Positions 11,459 through 38,587 of a stretch of DNA of 38,984 nucleotides are shown here, in pieces. A program made the translations under genes and the position numbers. The DNA lies in IMG/VR virus record IMGVR_UViG_3300008262_000132, positions 1 through 38,984 of that record, one strand, 5' to 3'. Origin of the DNA: a virus. The stretch's first letter is position 1, and each line of letters starts with the position of its first letter. The notes below the pieces were generated by a model. The model was not told the origin of the DNA. It saw only the letters and a list, made by a program, of their open reading frames with translations, and made no database searches.

Positions 11459-12075
11459 CAGTTACCCCTTTTGGTTAGCATGGCGCTGGCAATCTCCAGC
11501 ATGAATTTTACTTGTTCAAGGTTTTCTGGCTCCTGCGGCCAGCCGACTGTGATCTGTCCAACAAAGCGGTTCTGATCTGGCGGTACGCTGATCCGGCATG
11601 TAAACGTCACACCCTTCTCGATGTACCACAGGCCCACCTCGGACTGCGCGTAGCGGTATGGGCCACACGGAATTTCCGCCGTCATCAGCTTGACCACATC
11701 GTTGTTGTTCGGGGTGCTGTGTGTGAACAGGCCCACGTCGATGTCGTCGATGCTCTTGTCCCTGCCGTCCTTCGTGTACGCCTTGTAGACCACCCGAGAG
11801 TTGAACAGAGGGTTGACCTTGAAGATCGCCACAACGGCTGCGCCCGTCTGCTTGAACAGCATGGCACTGGCTTCATCCGCACGAGGCGTGTTTATCTCTG
11901 GCAGCTTCTTGGACTCCTTGTAGGCATCCCTCATGAACTCTTGGTTTTGCCACAGGAAGTAGCCAGCGAAGGCCACTACGCCCATGACAAGGATGGCAAA
12001 CAGCTTGAACGGCGAGTCCACATACCCGAGCACCTTGTCGAGGGTTGTGTTGGCGTTTGGCTTCTCGTCGCTCAT
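11458..12075 (-). CDS. Membrane-anchored protein with external domain, lysis region (205 aa)
   Basis: One N-terminal transmembrane segment is clear (residues about 23-42, FKLFAILVMGVVAFAGYFLW), preceded by a charged cytoplasmic tail, and a soluble C-terminal domain of about 150 residues follows that would face the periplasm. Two cysteines in that domain (in AEIPCGPYRY and GVTFTCRIS) could form a disulfide. I know similar proteins beside holins in aquatic phages but no function. The ATG forms an ATGA overlap with the preceding stop. A spanin-like or superinfection role is possible but only inferred from position. Confidence 0.6.
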   Translation of the reverse strand: MSDEKPNANTTLDKVLGYVDSPFKLFAILVMGVVAFAGYFLWQNQEFMRDAYKESKKLPEINTPRADEASAMLFKQTGAAVVAIFKVNPLFNSRVVYKAYTKDGRDKSIDDIDVGLFTHSTPNNNDVVKLMTAEIPCGPYRYAQSEVGLWYIEKGVTFTCRISVPPDQNRFVGQITVGWPQEPENLEQVKFMLEIASAMLTKRGN

Positions 12076-19503: not shown

Positions 19504-20082
19504 TTATGCCGCGTCAAGGGAAAAAGAGTAACTGACGTTCAGGGTGTCGCCGTTGTCCACGGTCTTGTCGCCGCCAGTGAAGTCACCAGCAGAGAACAAG
19601 ATACCGGAAGTGCCGCTGCTCACGCTGGCCAAGAACGCGCCAGCCACCACAGTGCTGTTCACCAGCATGGCAAACGAGGATGGACTGCCGGAGTTTGTGA
19701 TCACCGATGGATCAGCCGTTGTGGCCGTGCCAAACGTGACAGCCTTGCGGTTGCCAGTGTAAGCAGTGCCGGGCACCAACTCAGTCCAGCCAGCGTGCGA
19801 GGCCAGTGTGTCGGCAGCGGCGAATGTTGTGCCGGAGCCGGGGCCTTCGACCAGACCCAAGTACCAAGCGGCGGTGTAACCCGAAGCGGCAAAGTACTTG
19901 CTGTTCATGTCCTGCAGACCCTGATTGACCACGAGGTTGTGGAACGAGTCGGACCATTTTTCCTTGCCGTCTGCGCCCACGCAAGTGACGGTGAAGACAC
20001 CGCCCGCGCCAACGCGCTCACCGCCAGCGCGGTTTGTGGTCATGCCTGCGGTAACGCTGTCGGCTGCTTTGCTGTGTTCCAT
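19504..20082 (-). CDS. Tail/virion structural protein (192 aa)
   Basis: A 192-residue beta-rich protein. The segment NLVVNQGLQDMNSKYFAASG and a later YLGLVEGPGS, TGGDKTVDNGDTLNVSYSF pattern occurs in small structural proteins near fibres of several phages. The last strand pattern (KTVDNGDTLNV) also resembles the end of the next gene upstream (KTVNNDTFQI), hinting at related folds. No enzyme motif is visible. It precedes the HNH insertion. Confidence 0.65.
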   Translation of the reverse strand: MEHSKAADSVTAGMTTNRAGGERVGAGGVFTVTCVGADGKEKWSDSFHNLVVNQGLQDMNSKYFAASGYTAAWYLGLVEGPGSGTTFAAADTLASHAGWTELVPGTAYTGNRKAVTFGTATTADPSVITNSGSPSSFAMLVNSTVVAGAFLASVSSGTSGILFSAGDFTGGDKTVDNGDTLNVSYSFSLDAA

Positions 20083-20091
20083 GATGGCTCC

Positions 20092-20538
20092 TTAAGAGAT
20101 TCGCACGATTGCGCTGTTGGCATCGGCTGTTGGGAAGATGATTTGGAAAGTGTCGTTGTTGACGGTCTTGTCGGAGCCAAAGTCCAGCACCGCCACAGAC
20201 TTGTTGCCTTCGCTGCTGTTGTAGATCAAAGCCGCACGGGCCGTGAACGTAGCGCCAGTCCAAGAAGTGTTGGCAAAGCTGAAGTATGCCGTGGGCACGT
20301 TGCTGCTGTTGTTTGCCGCCACAGGCGTGGTCGTGATGGTCAGCGTGTTGCCACCGGCCGAATAGCCCGCGCCAGTCACCTCGTTGGAGGTGCTGTACAC
20401 GGTTGTCGCATAGCCAAGGTCCGCAGCGGCGGTATACAAAGCGATCTTGAACGTGTCCGGCGAGGTGGGGCCAAAGTTGTGGACACCCTGCGGCAGCTCG
20501 ACTTTGAACGAAGTGGTTGCGGTTTGTACGATTGACAT
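20092..20538 (-). CDS. Small beta-rich virion protein (148 aa)
   Basis: A 148-residue Thr/Ser/Ala-rich protein with alternating strands, beginning MSIVQTATTSFKVELPQGVH and containing DTFKIALYTAAADLGYATT, a motif common in tail proteins of aquatic phages. It starts 1 bp after the adaptor gene stop. It shares the KTVxNxDT strand with the following gene, so the two may be distant duplicates. A tail-tip or fibre-connector role is inferred. Confidence 0.65.
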   Translation of the reverse strand: MSIVQTATTSFKVELPQGVHNFGPTSPDTFKIALYTAAADLGYATTVYSTSNEVTGAGYSAGGNTLTITTTPVAANNSSNVPTAYFSFANTSWTGATFTARAALIYNSSEGNKSVAVLDFGSDKTVNNDTFQIIFPTADANSAIVRIS

Positions 20539-20539
20539 A

Positions 20540-21217
20540 TCAGTTTACCCCTCTGTTTTGAGGTAGCGGTGGCGAACGGTACTGGCCGCTTCTGTAGCTG
20601 TCGGAACGCTCCAGTCCATCGCCCAGACGTTTGGCCAATGCTACGGCTTCTTTGAACTTCATGTCGTAGCCCTGCATGATGTCAACTTCACCCTTCATGT
20701 AGGTGTACGCCTCGACCAGCGAACCGTAAAGCAGCACGCTGTCAAAGTTGTCACCCAACCAAGAAGTCCCGGCCGTCACAATCGACGGTGGATAAAAGAA
20801 GTAATGTAGCTCGGCCACGTAGGTGGCGTCTGGCGTTGGGCCCAAGATGAAGGTCAGTTCATTGATGTCGTTGGACTGCGGGCCAAACAGAGCGTAGTAT
20901 TTGGGAAACGCCGTGTCGTTGGGGTTCGGGTACGCCTGCCGGATGAAGTTCACATCCTTGTTGAGCAGGTACTCGTAGTTACCCGAAGCATCCACCACTG
21001 CCAGCGAGTGCACCGACAAAAAGTCCGAAGGACATGCCAGATACTTGTTGTTGCTGGTGGTAGAGCCCGTCACATTCTTGCGCAACGATGGGAACTGCAC
21101 CATGTTGAAAATGCGCTGCTCAGCCTGCTCCACAAACACAGGAATCTCCGCCTCAAACGAAGCGTCCTGATTTTCTGTGTAGGCGATGATCGCCGCTTTC
21201 AACTCGGTGTAGTTCAT
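20540..21217 (-). CDS. Head-tail adaptor protein, SU10-adaptor-like (225 aa)
   Basis: The protein begins MNYTELKAAIIAYTENQDAS and continues with FVEQAEQRIFNMVQFPSLRK and CPSDFLSVHSLAVVD, the characteristic helical start and strand series of phage adaptor proteins such as that of SU10-type podoviruses. A helical C-terminus (YMKGEVDIMQGYDMKFKEAV) follows. The 225-residue length is typical. It would sit under the portal and join the head to the tail. Confidence 0.75.
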   Translation of the reverse strand: MNYTELKAAIIAYTENQDASFEAEIPVFVEQAEQRIFNMVQFPSLRKNVTGSTTSNNKYLACPSDFLSVHSLAVVDASGNYEYLLNKDVNFIRQAYPNPNDTAFPKYYALFGPQSNDINELTFILGPTPDATYVAELHYFFYPPSIVTAGTSWLGDNFDSVLLYGSLVEAYTYMKGEVDIMQGYDMKFKEAVALAKRLGDGLERSDSYRSGQYRSPPLPQNRGVN

Positions 21218-21224
21218 TCAGACC

Positions 21225-21479
21225 TCACGCCATTGGGCCACGAGCCATCACGCCCTTGGTGGCTGCACCAGTGCCACGGATTTTGATGCCGCTGGTTTTG
21301 GTAGGTGGGTAGTCTTGGCTGCGCACGTTGGCCACGGACACGTTGGTGTCTCGCATGGTCTTCTTGGCAGGCTCGACGCCGACCACTGGGGTAACGACAG
21401 TTCGAGGTTGTGGGCCAGCAACACGAGTTGCTGTGGTTTTTTCCCCCGACGGAACGGGGCGTCCAGCTTTAGTTGCCAT
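21225..21479 (-). CDS. Small basic protein with GAATKG C-terminus (84 aa)
   Basis: An 84-residue Lys/Arg/Thr/Pro-rich protein without predicted enzyme fold. The C-terminus SGIKIRGTGAATKGVMARGP recurs in small phage proteins I know from aquatic genomes and resembles the KG-x-T-x-G motif of neighbouring small proteins. It lies 7 bp before the adaptor gene and 1 bp after the next small gene. Possibly a nucleic-acid- or capsid-binding accessory; no function is known to me. Confidence 0.6.
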   Translation of the reverse strand: MATKAGRPVPSGEKTTATRVAGPQPRTVVTPVVGVEPAKKTMRDTNVSVANVRSQDYPPTKTSGIKIRGTGAATKGVMARGPMA

Positions 21480-21480
21480 A

Positions 21481-21675
21481 TCAGGCTCCCTTCTTACCGG
21501 GGCTGCGTTGGTTCATGACCTTGGCCATGTTGCGGCCGTACTGCAGCATATCGCTGTTGGTCTTGCCACCAGCTTTCAGCTTGGTCGGTGTTTTGCCGGG
21601 ATGCATGTGGGCTTCATGCTTGCGCACGGCCGACTTCACCATCTTCTTGTCTTGCGCGAGGTCTTTTTTGTCCAT
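21481..21675 (-). CDS. Small Lys/His-rich protein (64 aa)
   Basis: A 64-residue highly basic protein (DKKDLAQDKKMVKSAVRKHE, then MHPGKTPTKLKAGG and YGRNMAKVMNQ). I recognise the H-E-x-x-MHPGK..TKL pattern from small phage proteins of unknown function. Short spacers on both sides (1 bp each) place it firmly in the late operon. Probably a DNA-binding or head-associated small protein; not proven. Confidence 0.65.
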   Translation of the reverse strand: MDKKDLAQDKKMVKSAVRKHEAHMHPGKTPTKLKAGGKTNSDMLQYGRNMAKVMNQRSPGKKGA

Positions 21676-21676
21676 G

Positions 21677-22069
21677 TCAGACTCCTATTTGAACTGTAAC
21701 TGTACCAACTTCCACGGTCAAAGCCAAGTTATTTGGCGTCAACGCATTGTCAAAACCCCGGGAACCGCCAACAGGGTTCCAGCCCCACTGAATGTCCCGC
21801 GAACCCCCGGTGTTGAAACCGTCTGTATTGGTGCCCGCCGTCACATACGTGGTGTCCCTGCGAGGGTTGCGCACCGCCTGTGGGTCATCCACCGGATACA
21901 TGCCCAGCAGAAGCTGCGGCTGATCTGGGTCCCAGCAAGAATCGCACACCAGCAGGTTGTACGTCTTGGTCTTGATCACCTCTTTGCGCAGCGCGGTCAG
22001 CTTGAACTGAAACCCACAACGATCGCACATGGCGATCGAGTTCTTGCCTGACGCATAGCGATTACCCAT
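21677..22069 (-). CDS. Zinc-ribbon-containing phage protein (130 aa)
   Basis: Residues 15-18 (CDRC) and 42-45 (CDSC) form two CxxC knuckles of a zinc ribbon, with VIKTKTYNLLV between them. WDPDQPQLLLGMYPVDDPQAV follows, a block I know from conserved small proteins next to adaptor genes in aquatic phages. The C-terminal half is Gly/Asn/Thr-rich and includes IQWGWNPVGGSRGFDN. Its ATG overlaps the previous stop as TAATG. A structural or adaptor-linked role is likely from context. Confidence 0.7.
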   Translation of the reverse strand: MGNRYASGKNSIAMCDRCGFQFKLTALRKEVIKTKTYNLLVCDSCWDPDQPQLLLGMYPVDDPQAVRNPRRDTTYVTAGTNTDGFNTGGSRDIQWGWNPVGGSRGFDNALTPNNLALTVEVGTVTVQIGV

Positions 22070-23001
22070 TACGTGCCGCTCCCAATGAACATCTGCCGTG
22101 GCACGAACCGCACAGCGGCCTTCTCACGGTCTTCGTCTTGGGCAAGCTGCCACGCCTCATCGTACTGAGCTTTCAGCACTTGCATGCGATCCGCTGCGTT
22201 GGGCAGCTTCATTGCCAGATAGTACGCCAAGCCTGCCACCATGCAGGGGATGAACCGGAAAGGCACGTCCGCCACGTTGACACCGCCACCGATGTCTTGT
22301 GTGCGGCGCAGACGCCAGTACACCAGCGTGTACGGCTGGGTGTTGTCCGGGGTTGGCCAAACGGTCACTGCAGGCAGTTGCTCCCAGTAGACCGCATCAC
22401 CGTTGCTGTGGGCTGCGGCCGTTGTGTTGGCTTGGCCTCGGGCGCAGTTGTTGAGCGTGTTGCCGGAGATGTACCCGTAGGCGATGATCTCGGTGCCGAT
22501 CTTGACGAACCCGGCGGCGGGCAGGCCCACAACGGAGTCAAGCGTGATGGTTGTCGCGGTGGACGTGATCGCGCCGCTAAGCTGAAGCCCTGTGGGACTT
22601 GTCTGGGCATTCAGGCGCTGCACCCAAATCTGGATGGGGCGGGCTTGCTGCAGCTTGTTGGGGATCGTGGCGTAGGTCGAGACGCTGATGCGCGTGATCG
22701 TCAGATCGGCTTGGGTGGCCACGTTGTTGGCCCCGGTGCGGATCACGTGCTCGATCAAATCCACCGTGTCGCTTGGCAGCGCGTAGGTGTTCTGGCCCGC
22801 CGTCAGCGCGATCGTGCCTTGCTCGAACGTCCACATGTTCAGGCCCCGGTTGGCCCAGTCTGCAAACATCAGGTTCAGAGAGCGGCGTGCTGTCTTCAGG
22901 TCATAACCCGTGCGCAGCTCCGCCCCGCATCGCTCGAAGGCTTCTTCGACGATTTCTGTCAAATCCAGATTGAACGCTGAAACGCCGGAAGTAGTAGCCA
23001 T
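22069..23001 (-). CDS. Head-tail connector / tail tubular A-like protein (310 aa)
   Basis: The N-terminal helical part (DLTEIVEEAFERCGAELRTG then ARRSLNLMFADWANRGLNMW) followed by TYALPSDTVDLIEHVIR is the standard layout of podovirus head-tail connectors and tail tubular A/gp4-type proteins. Residues about 140-200 appear to be an inserted beta domain (TTITLDSVVGLPAAGFVKIG and a Cys-Ala-Arg-Gly turn). The end returns to helices (YYLAMKLPNAADRMQVLKAQ). Two adaptor-type proteins (this and the one at 20540) probably form successive rings under the portal. Confidence 0.75.
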   Translation of the reverse strand: MATTSGVSAFNLDLTEIVEEAFERCGAELRTGYDLKTARRSLNLMFADWANRGLNMWTFEQGTIALTAGQNTYALPSDTVDLIEHVIRTGANNVATQADLTITRISVSTYATIPNKLQQARPIQIWVQRLNAQTSPTGLQLSGAITSTATTITLDSVVGLPAAGFVKIGTEIIAYGYISGNTLNNCARGQANTTAAAHSNGDAVYWEQLPAVTVWPTPDNTQPYTLVYWRLRRTQDIGGGVNVADVPFRFIPCMVAGLAYYLAMKLPNAADRMQVLKAQYDEAWQLAQDEDREKAAVRFVPRQMFIGSGT

Positions 23002-23234
23002 TATCTGAACCCTGCTGTTTTCTTGGCGATGCGTTTAGGCTGCGCCACGAACTGTTTACCTGCGGCTTTGCCAGCACGCTTGGCCTTGGTGGTGGCAGCG
23101 TACTCAGCCGGTGACAGCGATTTTATGGCAGCTTCGGGCAAATATCGCTCCCCCGTCTTGGAAGACGGTTTGCCGGACTTGGTGCGCCATTTCTGGTCAC
23201 CCCAATCCTTGAGCGATTTTTGCGGGGCTTTCAT
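23001..23234 (-). CDS. Small basic protein of the 'KSLKDWxDQKW' type, DUF5872-like (77 aa)
   Basis: From ATG 23234, which forms an ATGA overlap with the previous stop, the product starts MKAPQKSLKDWGDQKWRTKS and contains GKPSSKTGERYLPEAAI and PAEYAATTKAKRAGKAAGKQ. This matches a small domain (DUF5872, as I remember it) found in phages, bacteria and chromatin-like proteins; the name is from memory. The protein is strongly basic. An upstream in-frame ATG at 23270 would add 12 residues and overlap its neighbour more. Its TAA overlaps the next ATG. Confidence 0.75.
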   Translation of the reverse strand: MKAPQKSLKDWGDQKWRTKSGKPSSKTGERYLPEAAIKSLSPAEYAATTKAKRAGKAAGKQFVAQPKRIAKKTAGFR

Positions 23235-29893: not shown

Positions 29894-32368
29894 TTACTTT
29901 CCTTTTCGTGAGTTGGCCAATATCTGCGCCGCTTGCAACGCAGCCTGTGCTTTGTTCTTTGCGATGTCAGCGCCCATGCGCACACCTTCGCGTTCTTGTT
30001 CGCCTTGCAGGCGCTTTTCTGCCTGTTGCGCTTGCTGGCCAGCCTTGAAGCCTTCCAACTCCAGCTTGCCATCCAGCTCCTGCTTCTTCAGCTCCAGCTC
30101 GTCGGCTTTGGCTGCGGCATCCACTTGCAGCTTGCGCTCTTTCAGCGCCAGCTCGCCTTGCTTGATCTGCAGCTCTTGCATCTGCATCTGAACAACCGGG
30201 TCTTGGGCTTGCTGCTGTGCTTGTTGCTGAGCGGCTTGGGCTTGGTTTTGCTGCGACACTTGCACAGCGGCTTGGGCCATCATGGCCGACAGCGCCACTT
30301 CCACTTCTGGCGGCAACTTCTCGTCTTCGGGCGGCAAGGGCATGCCCAACTGTTGCTCAATCTGCTGGCGGTACGCAAAGCCTACGTGCTCCGCAATGTG
30401 CGCCATCATGGCTGCTTGGATCATCGGAGCCTTGGGGTTTTGGCCAATCAGCGCCATGATGGTCGGGTCTTGCATCGGTGCGGTGTGCACAGCAATGTGG
30501 GCTTTGTGATCTTGGTACAAAAAGGCTTTGACCGGCTTGCCTTTGAGCACCGCCTGATTCTCAGACACGGGGTCCTTGGGCTTCATGTCGTCTTCGATTG
30601 GCACGAGCTTCTCGGCGTTCTTGATGCCCAGCACGTCCAGCATGCCCCGGTGCAGGGCAGGCAGGTCGTAAATGTCCGGTGCCATCTGGGCCATCTGGAT
30701 CACAGCTTGATACTGCACAACACGCTGGCTGAGCGTGGCGGCGTTCGGGTCGCTGACAGGCAGGATGTCCACATGCTGGTAGTCCGAAGCCTTGGCCTTG
30801 GGGCCCTCTTCGCCATCGGGCTCGTAGGTGTACTCGTCGTCTGTGTAGTCGCGGATGATCGCGGCCAGCAACTGCAGCTCTTCTTTCAGGGAGTAGTGCA
30901 CACGCGCCTGAACGGCCGTCATCACTTTGAGCTGGCGCTCAAGGATAGCCAGTGTGGAGCCCACAGGAGCGTTGGCCCCCATGTCCGCCACCTTCATGTC
31001 GGCCGTCGCGGCGAAGCGGCGACCTTCATCGACCACTGTGCCCAAGAGCTGGAACAGCGTCTGGCTTGGCTCCTTGTACGGCAGCGGCATGATGTTGTCA
31101 CGGATCGCGCCCGAGCCAACGTCCACGTCACGGAACTCACCCGGAGCGATCGGGGTGTCGTCACCCTTGATGCGCAGGCCGCGTGTCTTCAGACCGCCGG
31201 GCAAGTTGCTCAGCGTACCGGCGTCGATCAACTGACGCATCAAGCTGGTGGCCGACTTGGCGAAGCCGCCGATCAGGTGGAACAGACCGAAGCCGTAGGC
31301 ACCAAAACCGGGGATGTACTGGTAGTGAACGAAGTGCTGGCGCTTGAGCTTGAGCTCGTCGTCCTCGTTCCAGTTGCGGCGCACGGACAAGATGGTGTTG
31401 GTGCCACGGATCATGGTGACCACGTACGGCAGCGCAATCTCAGACTCGTCTTCGCACAGCGGGTCGCCCTTGAGGTACAGGTCCACATGGGACTCGTACA
31501 GCGTAAAGCGGTCGTCGTTCAGATCGCTGAAGCCGGTCTCTTTGTCCTTGGCCTTGTTGATCTCGCTGATGGCTTTGTCCGGGTCACCGATCTCCACGTC
31601 ACGGTAGAAGCCAGCTTCTTGCAGCTTGATGATCTCGTTCTTCGTCTTGCGCATCTGGTGCGTCAGGCGGTAGCAAGTCTGGATGTTGGACGTGCCGTAG
31701 GGCAGCAGGATGTCCTCGGCCGGGATGAAGATCGACACTTGGCGGTCAAGGCTTGGGTCGAAGTAGACCTTCTTGAACGCGGAGCCTGTGGCGGGGAGCG
31801 ACCACAGCATGCGCTCGTGCTCAGCGCGGAACTCCTTCATCACCTCCGTGAGCTGGAAGTTCATGTCAGCCTCGACACGCAGCGCGGCTTCTTTCTTCTG
31901 CGGGGTCTCTTTGCCAATGATCTTGGTGCGCACAGGTCCGGCAGCAGGGAACGTCTCGGTGATCGTTTCTGACTGGAACCTGACAACCGCTTCTGTGATC
32001 ATGGGGTGGAACACGCCACTGGCACCGTTCCACGGCTCCGTGCGCTCCTCCATGTTCAAGCCCAAGAGCTTGAGGCCCTCGGTGTACGCCTTCTCCCAGT
32101 CCTTGCGGCTGTTGCGGTCGTTGTCGATGTCACCGGCCAACTCGCCTGCAAGGGTCTGCAGCTCGCCGTCGTCAAGGAACTCGGCCAAGTTGGCGTCGAA
32201 GTCGTCGATGGTGGGCTCACCCGGCTCGATCTCGATCTCCATGTCACCGACCTTGATGCTCACCTCTTCGGGGTCAACGATCTCAATTTCGATGGGGTCG
32301 ATGTCTTCCGCCAAGTCCTCAAGACCTCGGGGTTGCTGAAACATTGCTTTGTCAAAATTTGTAGCCAT
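29894..32368 (-). CDS. Portal protein (824 aa)
   Basis: The 824-residue protein begins with an acidic region (residues about 20-75, many Asp/Glu/Ile) and contains typical long-portal motifs: WEKAYTEGLKLLGLNMEERT, GASGVFHPMITEAVVRFQSE, FEKVYF-like SAFKKVYFDPSLDR, then a stem-helix region near 400 (LFHLIGGFAKSATSLMRQLI). The last 180 residues are Gln/Ala/Lys/Glu-rich coiled coil, probably the barrel or crown. Large portals with such tails are usual for this group of phages. The dodecameric ring would be the DNA entry and exit channel and bind TerL. Confidence 0.85.
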   Translation of the reverse strand: MATNFDKAMFQQPRGLEDLAEDIDPIEIEIVDPEEVSIKVGDMEIEIEPGEPTIDDFDANLAEFLDDGELQTLAGELAGDIDNDRNSRKDWEKAYTEGLKLLGLNMEERTEPWNGASGVFHPMITEAVVRFQSETITETFPAAGPVRTKIIGKETPQKKEAALRVEADMNFQLTEVMKEFRAEHERMLWSLPATGSAFKKVYFDPSLDRQVSIFIPAEDILLPYGTSNIQTCYRLTHQMRKTKNEIIKLQEAGFYRDVEIGDPDKAISEINKAKDKETGFSDLNDDRFTLYESHVDLYLKGDPLCEDESEIALPYVVTMIRGTNTILSVRRNWNEDDELKLKRQHFVHYQYIPGFGAYGFGLFHLIGGFAKSATSLMRQLIDAGTLSNLPGGLKTRGLRIKGDDTPIAPGEFRDVDVGSGAIRDNIMPLPYKEPSQTLFQLLGTVVDEGRRFAATADMKVADMGANAPVGSTLAILERQLKVMTAVQARVHYSLKEELQLLAAIIRDYTDDEYTYEPDGEEGPKAKASDYQHVDILPVSDPNAATLSQRVVQYQAVIQMAQMAPDIYDLPALHRGMLDVLGIKNAEKLVPIEDDMKPKDPVSENQAVLKGKPVKAFLYQDHKAHIAVHTAPMQDPTIMALIGQNPKAPMIQAAMMAHIAEHVGFAYRQQIEQQLGMPLPPEDEKLPPEVEVALSAMMAQAAVQVSQQNQAQAAQQQAQQQAQDPVVQMQMQELQIKQGELALKERKLQVDAAAKADELELKKQELDGKLELEGFKAGQQAQQAEKRLQGEQEREGVRMGADIAKNKAQAALQAAQILANSRKGK

Positions 32369-34526: not shown

Positions 34527-34611
34527 TTGTCCTTACGGTTGGCGGGTTGCAGTCCCGGTGTGCAAAGTGTACACTCACATTGGCAGTGCTGCAATCTTTT
34601 GATTTATGCAT
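34465..34611 (-). CDS. Possible 48-aa leader ORF before the terminase genes
   Basis: A 48-codon frame starts at ATG 34611 and ends in TGA at 34465, overlapping the terminase small-subunit gene by 62 bp in another frame. Its only strong support is the ribosome site AAGGAGAAGCAAATG, almost identical to that of two early genes of this phage. The product begins MHKSKDCSTANVSVHFAHRD and shows no recognised motif. It could be a real small protein, a translated leader, or an accident of shared leader sequence. Confidence 0.3.
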   Translation of the reverse strand: MHKSKDCSTANVSVHFAHRDCNPPTVRTNAGPPHFNRSGPRHLSRDAG

Positions 34612-34639
34612 TTGCTTCTCCTTGGGTCAAGACCCATTC

Positions 34640-34674
34640 AACCCCCCGCGTCGCAAGGCCCGGGGGGTTTTTTT
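34640..34674 (+). terminator. Rightward intrinsic terminator in the divergent spacer
   Basis: AACCCCCCG (34640-34648) pairs with CGGGGGGTT (34661-34669); a 12-nt loop separates them and seven T follow (34668-34674). It is a strong terminator for rightward RNA. All genes to its left lie on the other strand, so what it terminates is unclear: antisense transcription from the late block or a small RNA starting just upstream. Confidence 0.8.
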
Positions 34675-34696
34675 CGTCCTCGAGATTCTTACAATT

Positions 34697-34725
34697 TTTA
34701 TAAAATTTTTGGGCACTGCCTAAAA
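34697..34725 (-). promoter_or_regulatory. Candidate late promoter (leftward)
   Basis: Leftward reading gives TATAAA (34702-34697) with TTTTAG or TTTTTA 17-18 bp upstream as a poor -35. Transcripts would start near 34690 and run through the terminase block. An AT-rich dyad overlaps the spacer and -35, so repression or activation by a bound protein is plausible. The -10 is good; the -35 is not. Confidence 0.35.
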
Positions 34726-34728
34726 ATT
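34704..34728. repeat. 11-bp AT-rich inverted repeat over the candidate late promoter
   Basis: AATTTTTGGGC and GCCTAAAAATT flank the triplet ACT, with one mismatch in the dyad. It overlaps the -35 and spacer of the candidate leftward promoter, so it could be an operator; it could also be a hairpin. Confidence 0.5.
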
Positions 34729-34734
34729 AAGCAA

Positions 34735-34767
34735 GGGGGTGGGTCTGGGAAATGCGGGGGGTGGGGG
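34735..34767 (+). other. Putative G-quadruplex run
   Basis: The top strand has five G-runs (5, 3, 3, 6 and 5 G) separated by loops of 1-6 nt between 34735 and 34767, which meets the G3+N1-7 rule. It stands in the divergent spacer between the late and early promoters. The strand asymmetry next to an AT-rich patch is also seen in some replication origins. Folding is predicted, not shown. Confidence 0.6.
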
Positions 34768-34934
34768 TGGTTGTCTTGGAGTTGTCTAAGTTTTTACAAA
34801 ATGGTCTGTGCGGCTGCGGAACAGTGTTCATGTGGACGACGGTCTCTCTGCTGTACATGGCTTGGTGGGGGTACGGTGGGGTCTTAGGTATGCCATTCTC
34901 CCCTGCCTGTAATGCTTAGAAATACCCCCTTCCA

Positions 34935-34940
34935 TACAAT
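34935..34940 (+). promoter_or_regulatory. Candidate -10 box of a rightward early promoter
   Basis: TACAAT matches five of six consensus bases, 75 bp upstream of the first rightward gene. No good -35 lies at the usual spacing. Transcription would start near 34947, placing the first palindrome in the 5' leader of the mRNA. Confidence 0.35.
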
Positions 34941-34976
34941 AGAGGCATCGGTTAGGGAATGGTTCTCTAGCCGATC

Positions 34977-34993
34977 GGGGACAAGGTGTCCCC
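34977..34993. repeat. Early-region palindrome copy 1
   Basis: GGGGACA-AGG-TGTCCCC, a perfect 7-bp inverted repeat with a 3-nt centre. It lies 16 bp before the first rightward ATG, next to its AAGGAG site. It is the first of seven copies; see the matching finding. Confidence 0.95.
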
Positions 34994-35009
34994 ATTCAAG
35001 GAGTCTTTC

Positions 35010-35420
35010 ATGTCTACACGTTCCACAGTTCACGCCGTTATCACTGCCGCCTTCGCCTACGGTGAGGGCATCGCAGACCTTCAGAAGGCATTCAAGGGCC
35101 AGACCGCCGAGGCCGTCCGTGCCGCCTTGTTGCCTGACGTGGCCAGCTTCCCCAAGTACGCCGTGCCGCTGGTTGACGGTGCTGGCAAGGCCACAGGCAC
35201 CAAGGTGCTCGACAAGACCCATGCCAACTACGAAGCCTGCCGCAAAGCCTTGGGCCGTTTGGTGAGCGCCATCGCTGGCAAGTCGAACAACACCACCGAA
35301 GAGATCGAGATTCCCGCTGAGTTGCTCGCCGCCGCCGCGAAGCTGGTCAAGTTGGCGCAGGAGTACGAGGGCGCTCGCTCGTTGGCATCCAAAGCGCTGG
35401 CTCAAGCCTTCGCTAAGTGA
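35010..35420 (+). CDS. Unknown early protein (136 aa)
   Basis: ATG 35010 has AAGGAG 8 nt upstream and is the natural start; a GTG 8 codons earlier lies inside the palindrome. The 136-residue product is Ala/Lys-rich and mostly helical: VHAVITAAFAYGEGIADLQK, a PKYAVPLVDGAGKATGTK loop, then ELLAAAAKLVKLAQEYEGAR. I do not recognise it. As the first gene after the divergent spacer it is likely among the earliest expressed. Confidence 0.8.
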   Translation: MSTRSTVHAVITAAFAYGEGIADLQKAFKGQTAEAVRAALLPDVASFPKYAVPLVDGAGKATGTKVLDKTHANYEACRKALGRLVSAIAGKSNNTTEEIEIPAELLAAAAKLVKLAQEYEGARSLASKALAQAFAK

Positions 35421-35422
35421 TC

Positions 35423-35445
35423 GGGGACAAGTTGTCCCTGTTTTT
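35423..35445 (+). terminator. Early-region palindrome copy 2, followed by a T-run
   Basis: GGGGACA-AGT-TGTCCC-T (35423-35439; the last base of the right arm differs) begins 2 bp after the previous stop and is followed by TGTTTTT. This is the only copy that looks like an intrinsic terminator, probably a partial one because the next gene follows at 35511. Confidence 0.6.
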
Positions 35446-35510
35446 CTGTGGCGGTGTCAGCAGGAGCTGGCCCCGCTGTTTCAATTCCTGTCAAACCCTT
35501 GGAGATTCCC

Positions 35511-35666
35511 ATGCGTACCTTCACCCAGCAACTCATCCTCAACATCCAGCGCACCCAAATGCTTGCCGAGTGCGACGCCCTCATCGAAGACCGTGACTAC
35601 TTTGACATCGACTCGCGTGAGTCTGTGCTCGACCAGTACAACGCTGACTTCCCCATCCACAACTGA
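35511..35666 (+). CDS. Unknown small early protein (51 aa)
   Basis: ATG 35511 is preceded by TTGGAG. The 51-residue product is acidic at its end: RTFTQQLILNIQRTQMLAEC then DYFDIDSRESVLDQYNADFP. No family is recognised. It is separated by 10 bp from the next gene, so the two are co-transcribed. Confidence 0.75.
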   Translation: MRTFTQQLILNIQRTQMLAECDALIEDRDYFDIDSRESVLDQYNADFPIHN

Positions 35667-35676
35667 AAGGCCCATC

Positions 35677-35889
35677 ATGCGCAACCTCACCAACCCCATC
35701 GTGTCCGAGCAGGGCACAGTCGAAGTCCGTGGTCAGGCGTACCACCTGCAAACCATCAGCTACGGCTCACGCCACCACATCCACGTCTTCCGCAAGGCAG
35801 AGCTCAACAGGCACGGGCTCGTCTTCACCAGCCAGCGTGAGTACGAGATGTGGAAGACCCAGCTCGGGGCACAGCGTGAACTGTTCTGA
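35677..35889 (+). CDS. Unknown small early protein (70 aa)
   Basis: ATG 35677 follows GAAAGG. The 70-residue product has a beta-like start (EQGTVEVRGQAYHLQTISYG) with several His/Arg (SRHHIHVFRKAELNRHG) and a helical end. No motif is recognised. The gap after it (35890-36349) is the longest in the early region and carries a palindrome, a terminator and AT-rich repeats. Confidence 0.75.
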   Translation: MRNLTNPIVSEQGTVEVRGQAYHLQTISYGSRHHIHVFRKAELNRHGLVFTSQREYEMWKTQLGAQRELF

Positions 35890-35900
35890 GCACCGGGAAC

Positions 35901-35917
35901 GGGGACAGCATGTCCCC
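35901..35917. repeat. Early-region palindrome copy 3
   Basis: GGGGACA-GCA-TGTCCCC, extended to 10-bp arms by AAC/GTT on the outside. It lies 11 bp after the stop at 35889 and 23 bp before an intrinsic terminator. It is the longest dyad of the family. Confidence 0.95.
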
Positions 35918-35939
35918 GTTATGCAATCCATGCATAAAG

Positions 35940-35965
35940 TTGCTTAAAAAAGAGGCAATTTTTTT
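35940..35965 (+). terminator. Intrinsic terminator after the first early gene group
   Basis: TTGCTT and AGGCAA form a 6-bp stem (one G-T pair) with an A-rich loop of 7 nt, followed by seven T (35959-35965). It would end the transcript that starts at the divergent spacer. Confidence 0.6.
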
Positions 35966-36047
35966 GAGTCCAACATTATTGAAGGCATTCACTCTGACAG
36001 ACAGCCGCAAACCCGCATGGATACTAGCGTTCGGCAAGTTGGTCACA

Positions 36048-36099
36048 CCTAATATATATATAAATATATTATAGATAGATAGATATATATCTCTCTATA
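36048..36099. repeat. AT-rich tract with palindromes and GATA repeats (origin candidate)
   Basis: The 52-bp stretch is nearly all A and T. It holds an inverted repeat (TAATATAT ... ATATATTA, 36048-36071), an imperfect ATAG/GATA tandem run (36071-36085) and a perfect 12-bp palindrome AGATATATATCT (36081-36092). The surrounding 400 bp has no gene. Easily melted DNA beside palindromes is typical of replication origins or strong promoter regions; this is inference. Confidence 0.5.
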
Positions 36100-36185
36100 C
36101 GTCCACGTTTCCGGAGCCAAGCAAAGACGTACTTTAAGGGTTTGGGGTTAGCACTATCCCCACAGATATATTAGTTGTGACACAA

Positions 36186-36201
36186 ACGTGGAAAGCCACG
36201 T
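36186..36201. repeat. ACGTGG/CCACGT inverted repeat
   Basis: ACGTGG-AAAG-CCACGT is a 6-bp inverted repeat. A third CCACGT lies at 36103-36108, next to the AT-rich tract. They could be protein-binding sites around an origin or promoter. Confidence 0.4.
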
Positions 36202-36251
36202 GTTTATTGGGCTCGCGACCGTCCTGAGAAAATGACCGCCTTCTATATTCT

Positions 36252-36288
36252 TGGACACACAAAAGATTATGGTGGACACAAAGAGATT
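36252..36288 (+). repeat. Two direct repeats of TGGACACA..A.AGATT
   Basis: Copies at 36252-36268 and 36273-36288 are 21 bp apart, start to start, so they would lie on the same face of the DNA helix. They sit 60-100 bp before the ATG of the next gene. A regulator-binding or iteron-like role is possible; two copies are weak evidence. Confidence 0.4.
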
Positions 36289-36310
36289 CTGCGTGCACAC
36301 TACTCACATC

Positions 36311-36327
36311 GGGGACATGGTGTCCCC
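36311..36327. repeat. Early-region palindrome copy 4
   Basis: GGGGACA-TGG-TGTCCCC, extended by C/G on the outside. It ends 22 bp before ATG 36350, immediately before its ribosome site, as copy 1 does for the first gene. Confidence 0.95.
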
Positions 36328-36349
36328 GTTCAACACCACAGGAGTTCAC

Positions 36350-37180
36350 ATGGTTCAGCCACGCATTGCAACCAACGGGTTCAAGAGGTTCACCCTCGCC
36401 CAGATACGCACCATCCTTGAAGGCTACGGGTACGACCCCGAGCAGGTCGAGGAGAAGGTCAAGACCATCGCCAAAGAGCGGGCCGCACTGAAGGGGCTCA
36501 AGCTCAAGCAGACACGCTCGGTCACGTACTGGCGCTACCTTCGTACCCCACTCAAGCGAGAGATCGAGATCGCCAAGTCGTCGCTGGACTACATCAAGCG
36601 CAAGGAGATTCGGGGCGAAGCGCTGGAGGACGCTGATGTGGCCCGGCGTGAGGCGTACGAGGCATACACCGTGGTGCTGTCCCGTCTGCTGTCGCAGTTC
36701 GATGTGTTCGTGGAGTTGAATCCCTCGATGACGCCCACGCAGGTGCTCAAGCAGGAGCAAGACCGGGGCAAGTGGAAGTTCGTCACCAAGGGTGAGCACT
36801 GGGCTGACTGGGTGCCGGTCAAGGCGAGGGCTCCGGTGCTGGAGTTGTTCGCCGCTGTGCCGTACCGCAAGCAGGCCAAGACCAAGGTGCCGTTCGAGCG
36901 CAAGATTCCCAAGGGTTCGCAACGCAGTCGGCGCACGATGCTGGAGGAGGCAATGGCCAAGGAGTTGGAGACCTTGCAGGCCAAGCATGTGGCGTACGAG
37001 CCCAGCACCGGGATGTCAGACGCCTTGCTGGAGGAGTTGCAGACCCAGCGTGACCGGATCGGCCACAAGATACGCCAGATCAAGCGAGCGCAGGCTCGAC
37101 TGCACGAGAAGCGAGACAACACCCCATTCCCCATCACATGGCATGGGTTACTGAACGACGAGGAGATTGGCGATGAGTAA
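36350..37180 (+). CDS. Unknown early protein, basic and coiled-coil (276 aa)
   Basis: ATG 36350 has AGGAG 6 nt upstream; the frame is open further left to TTG 36251, but that would translate through palindrome copy 4. The 276-residue product is highly charged and helical. It begins VQPRIATNGFKRFTLAQIRT, has a basic helix AKSSLDYIKRKEIRGEALED, and ends with a basic coiled coil (DRIGHKIRQIKRAQARLHEK) before ITWHGLLNDEE. I do not recognise it. A DNA- or RNA-binding role would fit the charge, but no domain is visible. Confidence 0.75.
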   Translation: MVQPRIATNGFKRFTLAQIRTILEGYGYDPEQVEEKVKTIAKERAALKGLKLKQTRSVTYWRYLRTPLKREIEIAKSSLDYIKRKEIRGEALEDADVARREAYEAYTVVLSRLLSQFDVFVELNPSMTPTQVLKQEQDRGKWKFVTKGEHWADWVPVKARAPVLELFAAVPYRKQAKTKVPFERKIPKGSQRSRRTMLEEAMAKELETLQAKHVAYEPSTGMSDALLEELQTQRDRIGHKIRQIKRAQARLHEKRDNTPFPITWHGLLNDEEIGDE

Positions 37181-37400
37181 AGACCCGGTTGTTTTTTACA
37201 AGAAGTTCCGCAAGGCGGGCAAGGGCGGCTCCTATCGGGAGATGGAGTGGGCGCTCAGATACAAGGGTGTGCCTGAGCCGCACATCATTCTGGTACTGGC
37301 CTGTATCCGGGCACATCGGGAGGAGGCGGCACGCTTCAACCTGAGCGAGAAAAGCAGGGAGCGAATGCTGTTGGCCCTGCGAAATACGGCGAAAGAATGA
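37173..37400 (+). CDS. Unknown small early protein (75 aa)
   Basis: ATG 37173 lies inside the end of the previous gene (8-bp overlap) with AGGAG 7 nt upstream. The 75-residue basic product reads SKDPVVFYKKFRKAGKGGSY, then MEWALRYKGVPEPHIILVLA and KSRERMLLALRNTAKE. It is helical and may be translated by coupling with the gene before it. No family is recognised. Confidence 0.75.
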   Translation: MSKDPVVFYKKFRKAGKGGSYREMEWALRYKGVPEPHIILVLACIRAHREEAARFNLSEKSRERMLLALRNTAKE

Positions 37401-37402
37401 AC

Positions 37403-37419
37403 GGGGACAAGTTGTCCCC
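37403..37419. repeat. Early-region palindrome copy 5
   Basis: GGGGACA-AGT-TGTCCCC begins 2 bp after the stop of the previous gene. The centre is the same as in copy 2. A second, different hairpin follows 7 bp later. Confidence 0.95.
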
Positions 37420-37426
37420 AATCGGT

Positions 37427-37453
37427 TGGTGTGCGTTGCGGGGCCGCACACCA
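37427..37453 (+). other. 9-bp hairpin in the leader of the next gene
   Basis: TGGTGTGCG pairs with CGCACACCA across a 9-nt G-rich loop. No T-run follows. It lies between palindrome copy 5 and the ribosome site at 37475 and may stabilise or control the mRNA. Confidence 0.55.
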
Positions 37454-37487
37454 TGCCGCATATACCCTGCCCCCAAGGAGAAAGCAA

Positions 37488-37658
37488 ATGAGTGGATTCA
37501 ACGAGTATGTGGTGGTCATCGAGACCGCTGGCGATGGGGAAATTGACCGCGAGTACTTTGAGTACAACGCCCTGAGTTCAAGCGAGGCGCAAGCCTACGC
37601 ATTCGACGATCTTGCCGACAACCAGCGTGTGGTGTCGGTGTGGCAACGTGTTCTTTAA
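37488..37658 (+). CDS. Unknown small acidic early protein (56 aa)
   Basis: ATG 37488 has the site AAGGAGAAAGCAAATG. The 56-residue product is acidic: SGFNEYVVVIETAGDGEIDR then NALSSSEAQAYAFDDLADNQ. The VVVIETAGDG start followed by an acidic helix resembles small phage proteins of unknown use. The next gene begins 11 bp after it with the same ribosome-site sequence. Confidence 0.75.
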   Translation: MSGFNEYVVVIETAGDGEIDREYFEYNALSSSEAQAYAFDDLADNQRVVSVWQRVL

Positions 37659-37669
37659 GGAGAAAGCAA

Positions 37670-37930
37670 ATGACAACTTACATCGACATGACAGAGACCA
37701 TGATCAAACACAAGCAACCCACCTTTCATTACCTGTGCGTCAACGCATTCGGCTGGCGCTCGGGTGATGACCTGCACGACCTCATGAAGGCGATGGACAA
37801 AGAGAAGCACACCTACTGGGTGTGGTACGTGCCCGGCGAGTCGGCCGCTAACTATGCGATCAGCTTCTACCAACCCCAAGTCGAGGGCAGTTTCGTGCTG
37901 GCCCAAGTCGAGAAGAAACAACGCAAGTAA
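37670..37930 (+). CDS. Unknown early protein (86 aa)
   Basis: ATG 37670 has the same 17-nt ribosome-site sequence as the previous gene. The 86-residue product contains KQPTFHYLCVNAFGWRSGDD and HTYWVWYVPGESAANYAISF. It is aromatic-rich and compact, with a single Cys. The stop is directly followed by palindrome copy 6. No family is recognised. Confidence 0.75.
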   Translation: MTTYIDMTETMIKHKQPTFHYLCVNAFGWRSGDDLHDLMKAMDKEKHTYWVWYVPGESAANYAISFYQPQVEGSFVLAQVEKKQRK

Positions 37931-37931
37931 C

Positions 37932-37948
37932 GGGGACAACCTGTCCCC
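37932..37948. repeat. Early-region palindrome copy 6
   Basis: GGGGACA-ACC-TGTCCCC begins 1 bp after the stop at 37930 and extends by one C/G pair. A second hairpin and a long pyrimidine-rich stretch follow before the next gene. Confidence 0.95.
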
Positions 37949-37957
37949 GATCCCGTG

Positions 37958-38016
37958 GGCACTGCGGCTCAGTGCCTTTCCCTATCAACTTTCTTTTTCC
38001 CTTTTATTTTCTTTCA
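37958..38016 (+). other. Hairpin plus pyrimidine-rich leader
   Basis: GGCACTG (37958-37964) pairs with CAGTGCC (37970-37976) over a 5-nt loop, then TTTCCC. From about 37989 to 38016 the top strand is almost all T and C. The pair may be a weak terminator, or the pyrimidine tract may help ribosome (S1) binding for the gene at 38035. Confidence 0.45.
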
Positions 38017-38034
38017 AACCAAGGAGATTTCCCC

Positions 38035-38505
38035 ATGTCTACATTTTCCAAGCAAGTGGCCAACGCCGTGCGTACAAACCGTGCAGAGGTCAAACGCCTA
38101 GCCCTCAAAGCCAACCTGCTCAAACACCCAGAGGTCAAGAGTGCCTTCGAGATGCTCCCACCCAAAGTGCGCAAGGATGCAACGCTGGCCATGTCCGTCT
38201 TCAGCAACAGCGTGTTCATCAACCTGCACGTGTTCGACCTCGACTCATTCAAAGACAAGCGCTTCACCAACCTGCTCGAACGCTTCATCGACTGGGAGAC
38301 CACGACGGCCGACTACACCTACAGCCTGCCCAACAAGGACGTGCGCTTCGATAAGCGGTGCTACGACGACAAGGTGGGCGACTTCACCATCAGCGTGCAG
38401 ATCATGGCGTATGTGAAACCAGACAGCCCACTGTGCCGCATCGTGACCACGGGCTTCACGGAAGAAGTAGTTCGTAAGGAAGTCAAGCAGATCGTCTGCG
38501 CGTGA
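38035..38505 (+). CDS. Unknown early protein (156 aa)
   Basis: ATG 38035 has AAGGAG 9 nt upstream; an ATG 21 codons earlier in the same frame would encode a Phe/Pro-rich leader from the pyrimidine tract and is unlikely. The 156-residue product has a basic N-terminal helix part (NAVRTNRAEVKRLALKANLL) and a mixed strand-helix body (FINLHVFDLDSFKDKRFTNL, DFTISVQIMAYVKPDSPLCR). I do not recognise a family. Confidence 0.75.
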   Translation: MSTFSKQVANAVRTNRAEVKRLALKANLLKHPEVKSAFEMLPPKVRKDATLAMSVFSNSVFINLHVFDLDSFKDKRFTNLLERFIDWETTTADYTYSLPNKDVRFDKRCYDDKVGDFTISVQIMAYVKPDSPLCRIVTTGFTEEVVRKEVKQIVCA

Positions 38506-38510
38506 GCGTA

Positions 38511-38527
38511 ACCGGAGGAACTCCGGT
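38511..38527. repeat. Variant palindrome ACCGGAG-GAA-CTCCGGT
   Basis: A perfect inverted repeat with the same 7-3-7 geometry as the GGGGACA family but a different sequence. It begins 5 bp after the stop at 38505 and precedes copy 7 by 22 bp. Confidence 0.8.
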
Positions 38528-38549
38528 GAACGCCTAATCAACCAACAAC

Positions 38550-38566
38550 GGGGACGCTGTGTCCCC
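38550..38566. repeat. Early-region palindrome copy 7 (variant arm)
   Basis: GGGGACG-CTG-TGTCCCC has one changed base in the left arm but extended AAC/GTT flanks like copy 3. It lies 21 bp before ATG 38588. Confidence 0.9.
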
Positions 38567-38587
38567 GTTCAACCAAGGAGAAGAAGC

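Follow-up and report, generated by a model that had tools for sequence, protein, structure and literature searches.

The palindromes repeated along the early region of this phage are probably operators bound by g1, the product of the first early gene, which would, as a dimer, control its own expression and repress or silence early genes while co-diversifying with its sites. At the level of sequence, four features were evident: arrays of dyads, lineage-specific concerted switching of their arms, bracketing of g1 by the first two sites, and covariation between the type of dyad and the N-terminal portion of g1.

Palindrome family in the window

The window, that is, the whole stretch of DNA analysed, is the IMG/VR record IMGVR_UViG_3300008262_000132 of 38,984 bp; relatives of 62.8–66.5 kb suggest that it is a fragment. 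The seven copies of GGGGACA-N3-TGTCCCC listed in a preliminary description of this DNA were all recovered (Table 1), five with perfect arms and two, at 35423 and 38550, with one arm base off each. The accompanying claim that every early gap longer than 60 bp holds one or two sites, and the tight junctions and the 34-kb late block none, was also borne out. According to the gene calls, these gaps span 34527–35009, 35421–35510, 35890–36349 (with two sites), 37401–37487, 37931–38034 and 38506–38587, and all contain a site, whereas the tight junctions at 35667, 37173, 37659 and 38770 do not. A search of the 38,984-bp window at up to three mismatches returned no match beyond the seven sites. The shuffled window gave 2.5 matches at this threshold, and no perfect copies are expected for 14 fixed bases in 39 kb. 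Among the perfect 7-3-7 palindromes of the window, GGGGACA-N3-TGTCCCC was the only repeated family, and an eighth copy was located past the window end, at position 11784 of the near-identical contig L006.

Other features of the region were recorded alongside. An AT-rich block, tatatatataaatatattatagatagatagatatatatc, occupies window positions 36050–36100, with sites 3 and 4 on either side, and a G-rich element, ggtgggggtacggtgggg, at 34862–34883, some 55 bp before the −10 box of g1, was present in nearly all relatives examined. The near-identical contig L005 lacks 298 bp corresponding to window positions 29972–30269, inside the open reading frame at 29894–32368, as well as about 131 bp upstream of g1 (34720–34850); these missing segments are either real indels or assembly collapse.

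Table 1. Dyad sites, g1 and associated features of the early region, in window coordinates.
Feature	Positions	Strand	Remarks
Putative −10 box TACAAT of the g1 promoter	34935..34940	+	Conserved in relatives
Leader hairpin ATCGGTTAGGGAATGGTTCTCTAGCCGAT	34947..34975	+	Predicted 5' end of the g1 mRNA, directly after the −10 box
Dyad site 1, GGGGACA-AGG-TGTCCCC	34977..34993	.	g1 leader hairpin on one side, g1 start codon on the other
g1, 136 aa, proposed cognate dyad-binding regulator	35010..35420	+	First early gene; flanked by sites 1 and 2
Codons of g1 helix α3 (residues 74–89), proposed recognition helix	35229..35276	+	R83 at 35256–35258
Dyad site 2, GGGGACA-AGT-TGTCCCT	35423..35439	.	2 nt past the g1 stop, followed by TTTTT (terminator-like on +)
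Dyad site 3, GGGGACA-GCA-TGTCCCC	35901..35917	.	
Dyad site 4, GGGGACA-TGG-TGTCCCC	36311..36327	.	276-aa ORF downstream
Dyad site 5, GGGGACA-AGT-TGTCCCC	37403..37419	.	Stop codon immediately before
Dyad site 6, GGGGACA-ACC-TGTCCCC	37932..37948	.	Stop codon immediately before
Dyad site 7, GGGGACG-CTG-TGTCCCC	38550..38566	.	61-aa ORF downstream

Dyad arrays in related phages

Several hundred related viral contigs were found via the terminase. The motif, which the preliminary description had proposed to look for in related phages, recurred there as a dyad with different arms: the same region carries a repeated dyad in 89 of the 110 non-identical relatives with early DNA, compared with 0/110 shuffled loci and 0/23 late 5-kb chunks, and these counts are not independent events because the relatives share kinship. 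Re-examination of three untyped loci (L162, L131 and G004) revealed a dyad of its own in each, using settings outside the first scan for L162 and L131 and wrapping the contig as if circular for G004; the other untyped loci are mostly short.

The arm sequence is lineage-specific, with more than 20 types that include GGGGAAC-N2, GGGGAGA-N2 or N3, GGGGAAA-N2, GGGGACT-N1, GCGGACA-N3, CGGGTCA-N3, CGATTCA-N3, GTGGTCA-N2, TGTGAGA-N2 and AGGTGCA-N3. Within one genome all copies agree, even where orthologous sites keep conserved flanks. The spacer between the arms is 1–3 in the other lineages and differs by 1–2 bp among types, which weakens the operator reading because one rigid dimer would not tolerate such a difference. 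Downstream of the terminase start, no copy of a genome's own palindrome was detected in the relatives. Tandem paralogous genes were seen in the late block of G005 (35991–40508, four copies of about 290 aa) and of G003 (19906–23149, two of about 365 aa).

Intergenic placement holds in the window but not universally, since the position of site 1 depends on the lineage: it may precede the g1 start, lie upstream of the promoter or fall within the beginning of the g1 coding region. In the GCGGACA-type phages (L147, L161, L164, L171 and L138), the first dyad falls inside the g1 coding region, with an imperfect arm in all those examined. Site 2 is found 2–17 nt past the g1 stop in nearly all relatives. 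A sense stop codon occurs at most 20 nt before the site in 51% of 430 sites, compared with 10% of random positions; 139 of the 430 come after a stop but lack any start within 70 nt, and in 80 a stop and a start both occur. Most sites lie away from predicted promoters, which likewise weakens the operator reading. When the early region was compared by blastn with named phages, no match was returned, and the 25 kb read from the DSL-LC04 and HTVC027P regions contained no comparable dyad family.

Covariation of g1 with dyad type

The preliminary description saw no matching regulator, which is probably wrong, as g1, encoded between sites 1 and 2, is a strong candidate. In 82 of the 89 typed loci, an automatic search detected a gene whose end immediately precedes a site, and this gene was nearly always g1; a few g1 calls were corrected and others restored by inspection (e.g. 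G010). Variation in the N-terminal part of g1 follows dyad type, and the C-terminal tail of g1 is modular. In Mantel tests, motif distance was correlated with the distance between g1 N-parts (partial r 0.31, p 0.001) but not with that between C-parts (0.06, p 0.064) or terminases (−0.24). The nearest neighbour had the same dyad type in 58/63 cases when defined by the g1 N-part, 34/63 by the small terminase, 28/63 by the terminase and 30/41 by F6. The g1 C-part reached 55/63 in this plain comparison and, with close kin excluded, 17/63 versus 29/63 for the N-part. For pairs with 80–90% terminase identity, g1 N-part identity was 0.58–0.63 within a type versus 0.22 between types, and the corresponding C-part values were 0.26–0.38 versus 0.25.

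Among the early gene families screened, which covered the first 9 kb, g1 tracked dyad type best. Palindromes lying over 300 nt past g1 and detected de novo matched those around g1 in 61 of 62 loci, compared with 181 of 1839 mismatched pairings; therefore, linkage of sites 1 and 2 to g1 does not account for the association.

Residues and predicted structure of g1

The residues that switch with dyad type are clustered in one predicted helix of g1. When GGGGAAC genomes are compared with GGGGAGA genomes, perfect segregation is limited to three residues of the N-part: S45G and, at the start of predicted α3, an S-to-D and a T-to-A replacement. L150 and L160 are sisters by their g1 N-part (support 0.94), yet they differ in the dyad and in these three residues. 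Position 83 is R in GGGGAC types, and the GGGGAAA and TGGGGAA types have D or N there; the CGATTCA genomes have N at this position although motif position 6 is C, and the relationship between residue 83 and the motif is a lead, not a code.

Sequence searches of g1 against Pfam, PHROG and the PDB yielded no significant match and no recognisable DNA-binding domain. AF2 models were computed for two g1 types (pLDDT 82 and 79) and differ in detail. Comparison of both with the PDB using Foldseek and VIA-align gave nothing convincing (best Z 4.6 and 4.8), which does not imply a new fold, and the model of the window g1 had no convincing match in a viral structure library. For a helix-turn-helix (HTH) in g1, there was no profile match and the fold matches were weak only. 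DNA binding by g1 is thus suggested by its covariation with the dyads.

Cultured relatives

Synechococcus phage MinM2 (OQ594354), a cyanophage, carries 35 copies of CGGTTCA-N3-TGAACCG at up to two mismatches, spread over the whole genome with many in the late region; 18 are intergenic and 17 lie in genes, with 92% of the genome coding. This distribution fits early repression less well. A hidden Markov model of the g1 tail had a single match in the six-frame translation of MinM2, MM2_92 (E 9e-10), which is the first divergent early gene of this phage and has dyads on both sides. An identical g1 homologue is encoded by the Planktothrix phages Pag-Yong1 and Pra-JY27 (65,014 bp).

Alternative explanations

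The preliminary description had offered two main readings, an operator family, which was supported, and mRNA hairpins, which mostly were not. That the palindromes work as RNA hairpins, in mRNA processing, stability or termination, is very unlikely, even though they fold well as RNA and a T-run follows site 2 in 38 of 70 loci, versus 35/219 for the other sites and a background of 3%. At site 2, runs of at least four were found in 38/70 loci on the sense strand versus 1/70 on the antisense strand, and this site may double as an intrinsic terminator; elsewhere T-runs are few. The arm covariation proposed as a check was rare: relative to the arms of each genome, 6 departures were compensatory versus 117 that affected one arm, and mismatches on the sense strand of 374 distinct sites were more often A-C (45) than G-U (20). 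A main role as RNA hairpins is disfavoured because one-arm changes far exceed compensatory ones and G-U is no commoner than A-C, and on this mismatch pattern it was rejected. The neighbouring leader hairpin behaves unlike the dyads: both its arms vary among loci, and it still folds in most relatives having this promoter, which is what RNA constraint looks like. Moreover, site 1 is upstream of the promoter in some types. That the family consists of mobile, REP-like elements spread by a RAYT transposase can hardly be credited. The sole point in favour is the resemblance, raised in the preliminary description, of the GGGGACA/TGTCCCC ends to those of some REPs. No match to the Y1 transposase family (Y1_Tnp) was found in nine phage records, whereas control genomes do match, and spread by transposition was rejected because positions and flanks (up to 92% identity) are orthologous while the arms switch.

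That another phage or host protein binds the dyads, with g1 just travelling with sites 1 and 2, is improbable. The absence of a recognisable DNA-binding fold in g1, the presence of further HTH proteins and the restriction of the systematic gene screen to the first 9 kb speak for it; against it, the far sites also follow g1 (61/62), the type-switching residues are concentrated in one g1 helix, and F6 and the terminases predict type poorly. F24, a conserved 92-aa Cro-like HTH protein from the replication region, was rejected as the binder, as its recognition helix is nearly constant across dyad types. Somewhat less unlikely is that g1 binds the dyads in a non-transcriptional role, such as organising the DNA, controlling replication, packaging or marking self-DNA, a role that might also be supposed for the Cluster O repeats. 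About half of the sites follow a stop, often with no start nearby, those of MinM2 are genome-wide with 17/35 in genes, and the authors of the Cluster O study hold regulation of initiation to be unlikely for their repeats (PMC4351075). Against such a role, the sites in the window's group are confined to the early region, site 1 lies at the g1 promoter or start, and the bracketing of g1 suggests autoregulation.

Comparison with known systems

The closest precedent is the family of 7-3-7 repeats of Cluster O mycobacteriophages (Corndog), a 17-bp palindrome, TGTTCGG-N3-CCGAACA, predicted to be a dimer binding site, with one arm sequence in all genomes, more than 30 copies genome-wide and an A/T-rich centre; its function was unexplained when described in 2015, and no cognate protein was identified (PMC4351075). 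Shared with the dyads are the 7-3-7 geometry, arms that are invariant around a variable centre, presence in many copies in a genome, positions mostly away from promoters and phages without a recognised integrase. In contrast, the arms here are lineage-specific, the copies are fewer and restricted to the early region, and there is a candidate cognate gene; compared with the more than 30 copies of Cluster O, the window and its near-identical contig have 7–8, in the early region, and MinM2 alone exceeds that number.

The stoperators of Cluster A (L5-type) are 13-bp, asymmetric sites of temperate phages, oriented with transcription and bound by a repressor monomer, which occur both at promoters and in short gaps between genes, and the specificity of these repressors varies within one domain among relatives (PMC9283540). 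Both systems have multiple sites placed in the short gaps between genes of an operon and, for the dyads with g1 as the proposed binder, specificity variation in one protein domain among relatives. The dyads differ in their symmetry, in a protein family without known match and in the lack of a tyrosine integrase match: a search for this sign of temperate life with the Phage_integrase profile gave no match in nine records, and other lysogeny routes are possible. In our reading, the dyad arrays would act like stoperators yet fall outside the stoperator family.

Of the Cluster K repeats, SAS are tied to translation starts, and ESAS have inverted repeats and some differences among subclusters (PMC3203893). 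They share with the dyads the character of intergenic repeated motifs; the dyads have no tie to the translation start, and about half of them come after stop codons. The operators of lambdoid phages, which are temperate, are palindromic, few and clustered beside two promoters, and their sequence changes with the repressor among immunity types. Both groups thus have palindromic sites that differ by type together with a binding protein, proposed in our case; here, however, there is one site per gap along the early operon and no recognised repressor fold.

Proposed mechanism and significance

Under the preferred operator reading, a g1 homodimer would occupy each dyad, its two subunits each taking one 7-bp arm. 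Binding to site 1, which is close to the promoter or start of g1, would provide autoregulation, and at site 2 and the downstream-junction sites g1 would slow or stop transcription of the early operon, stoperator fashion. In each lineage, the specificity of g1 and all operators would have switched together, leaving no cross-regulation among relatives. The steps that we infer are that g1 dimerises, binds DNA and represses, and that selection acts against cross-regulation.

More tentatively, a large freshwater group of phages without tyrosine integrase could share a new regulator family, founded by g1, that binds DNA as a dimer and whose operators would be rewritten wholesale among close relatives. 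Early control would then be private and unreadable by co-infecting relatives, a heteroimmunity-like diversification without lysogeny.

The analysis turns unexplained dispersed phage palindromes into a testable protein–operator pair, for which more than 20 natural specificity variants are available for reading the recognition code and the cultured phages MinM2, Pag-Yong1 and Pra-JY27 offer bench access to the g1–dyad system. If true, the operator reading would reveal operator–repressor diversification in phages without a recognised tyrosine integrase and would provide a candidate logic for the Cluster O repeats.
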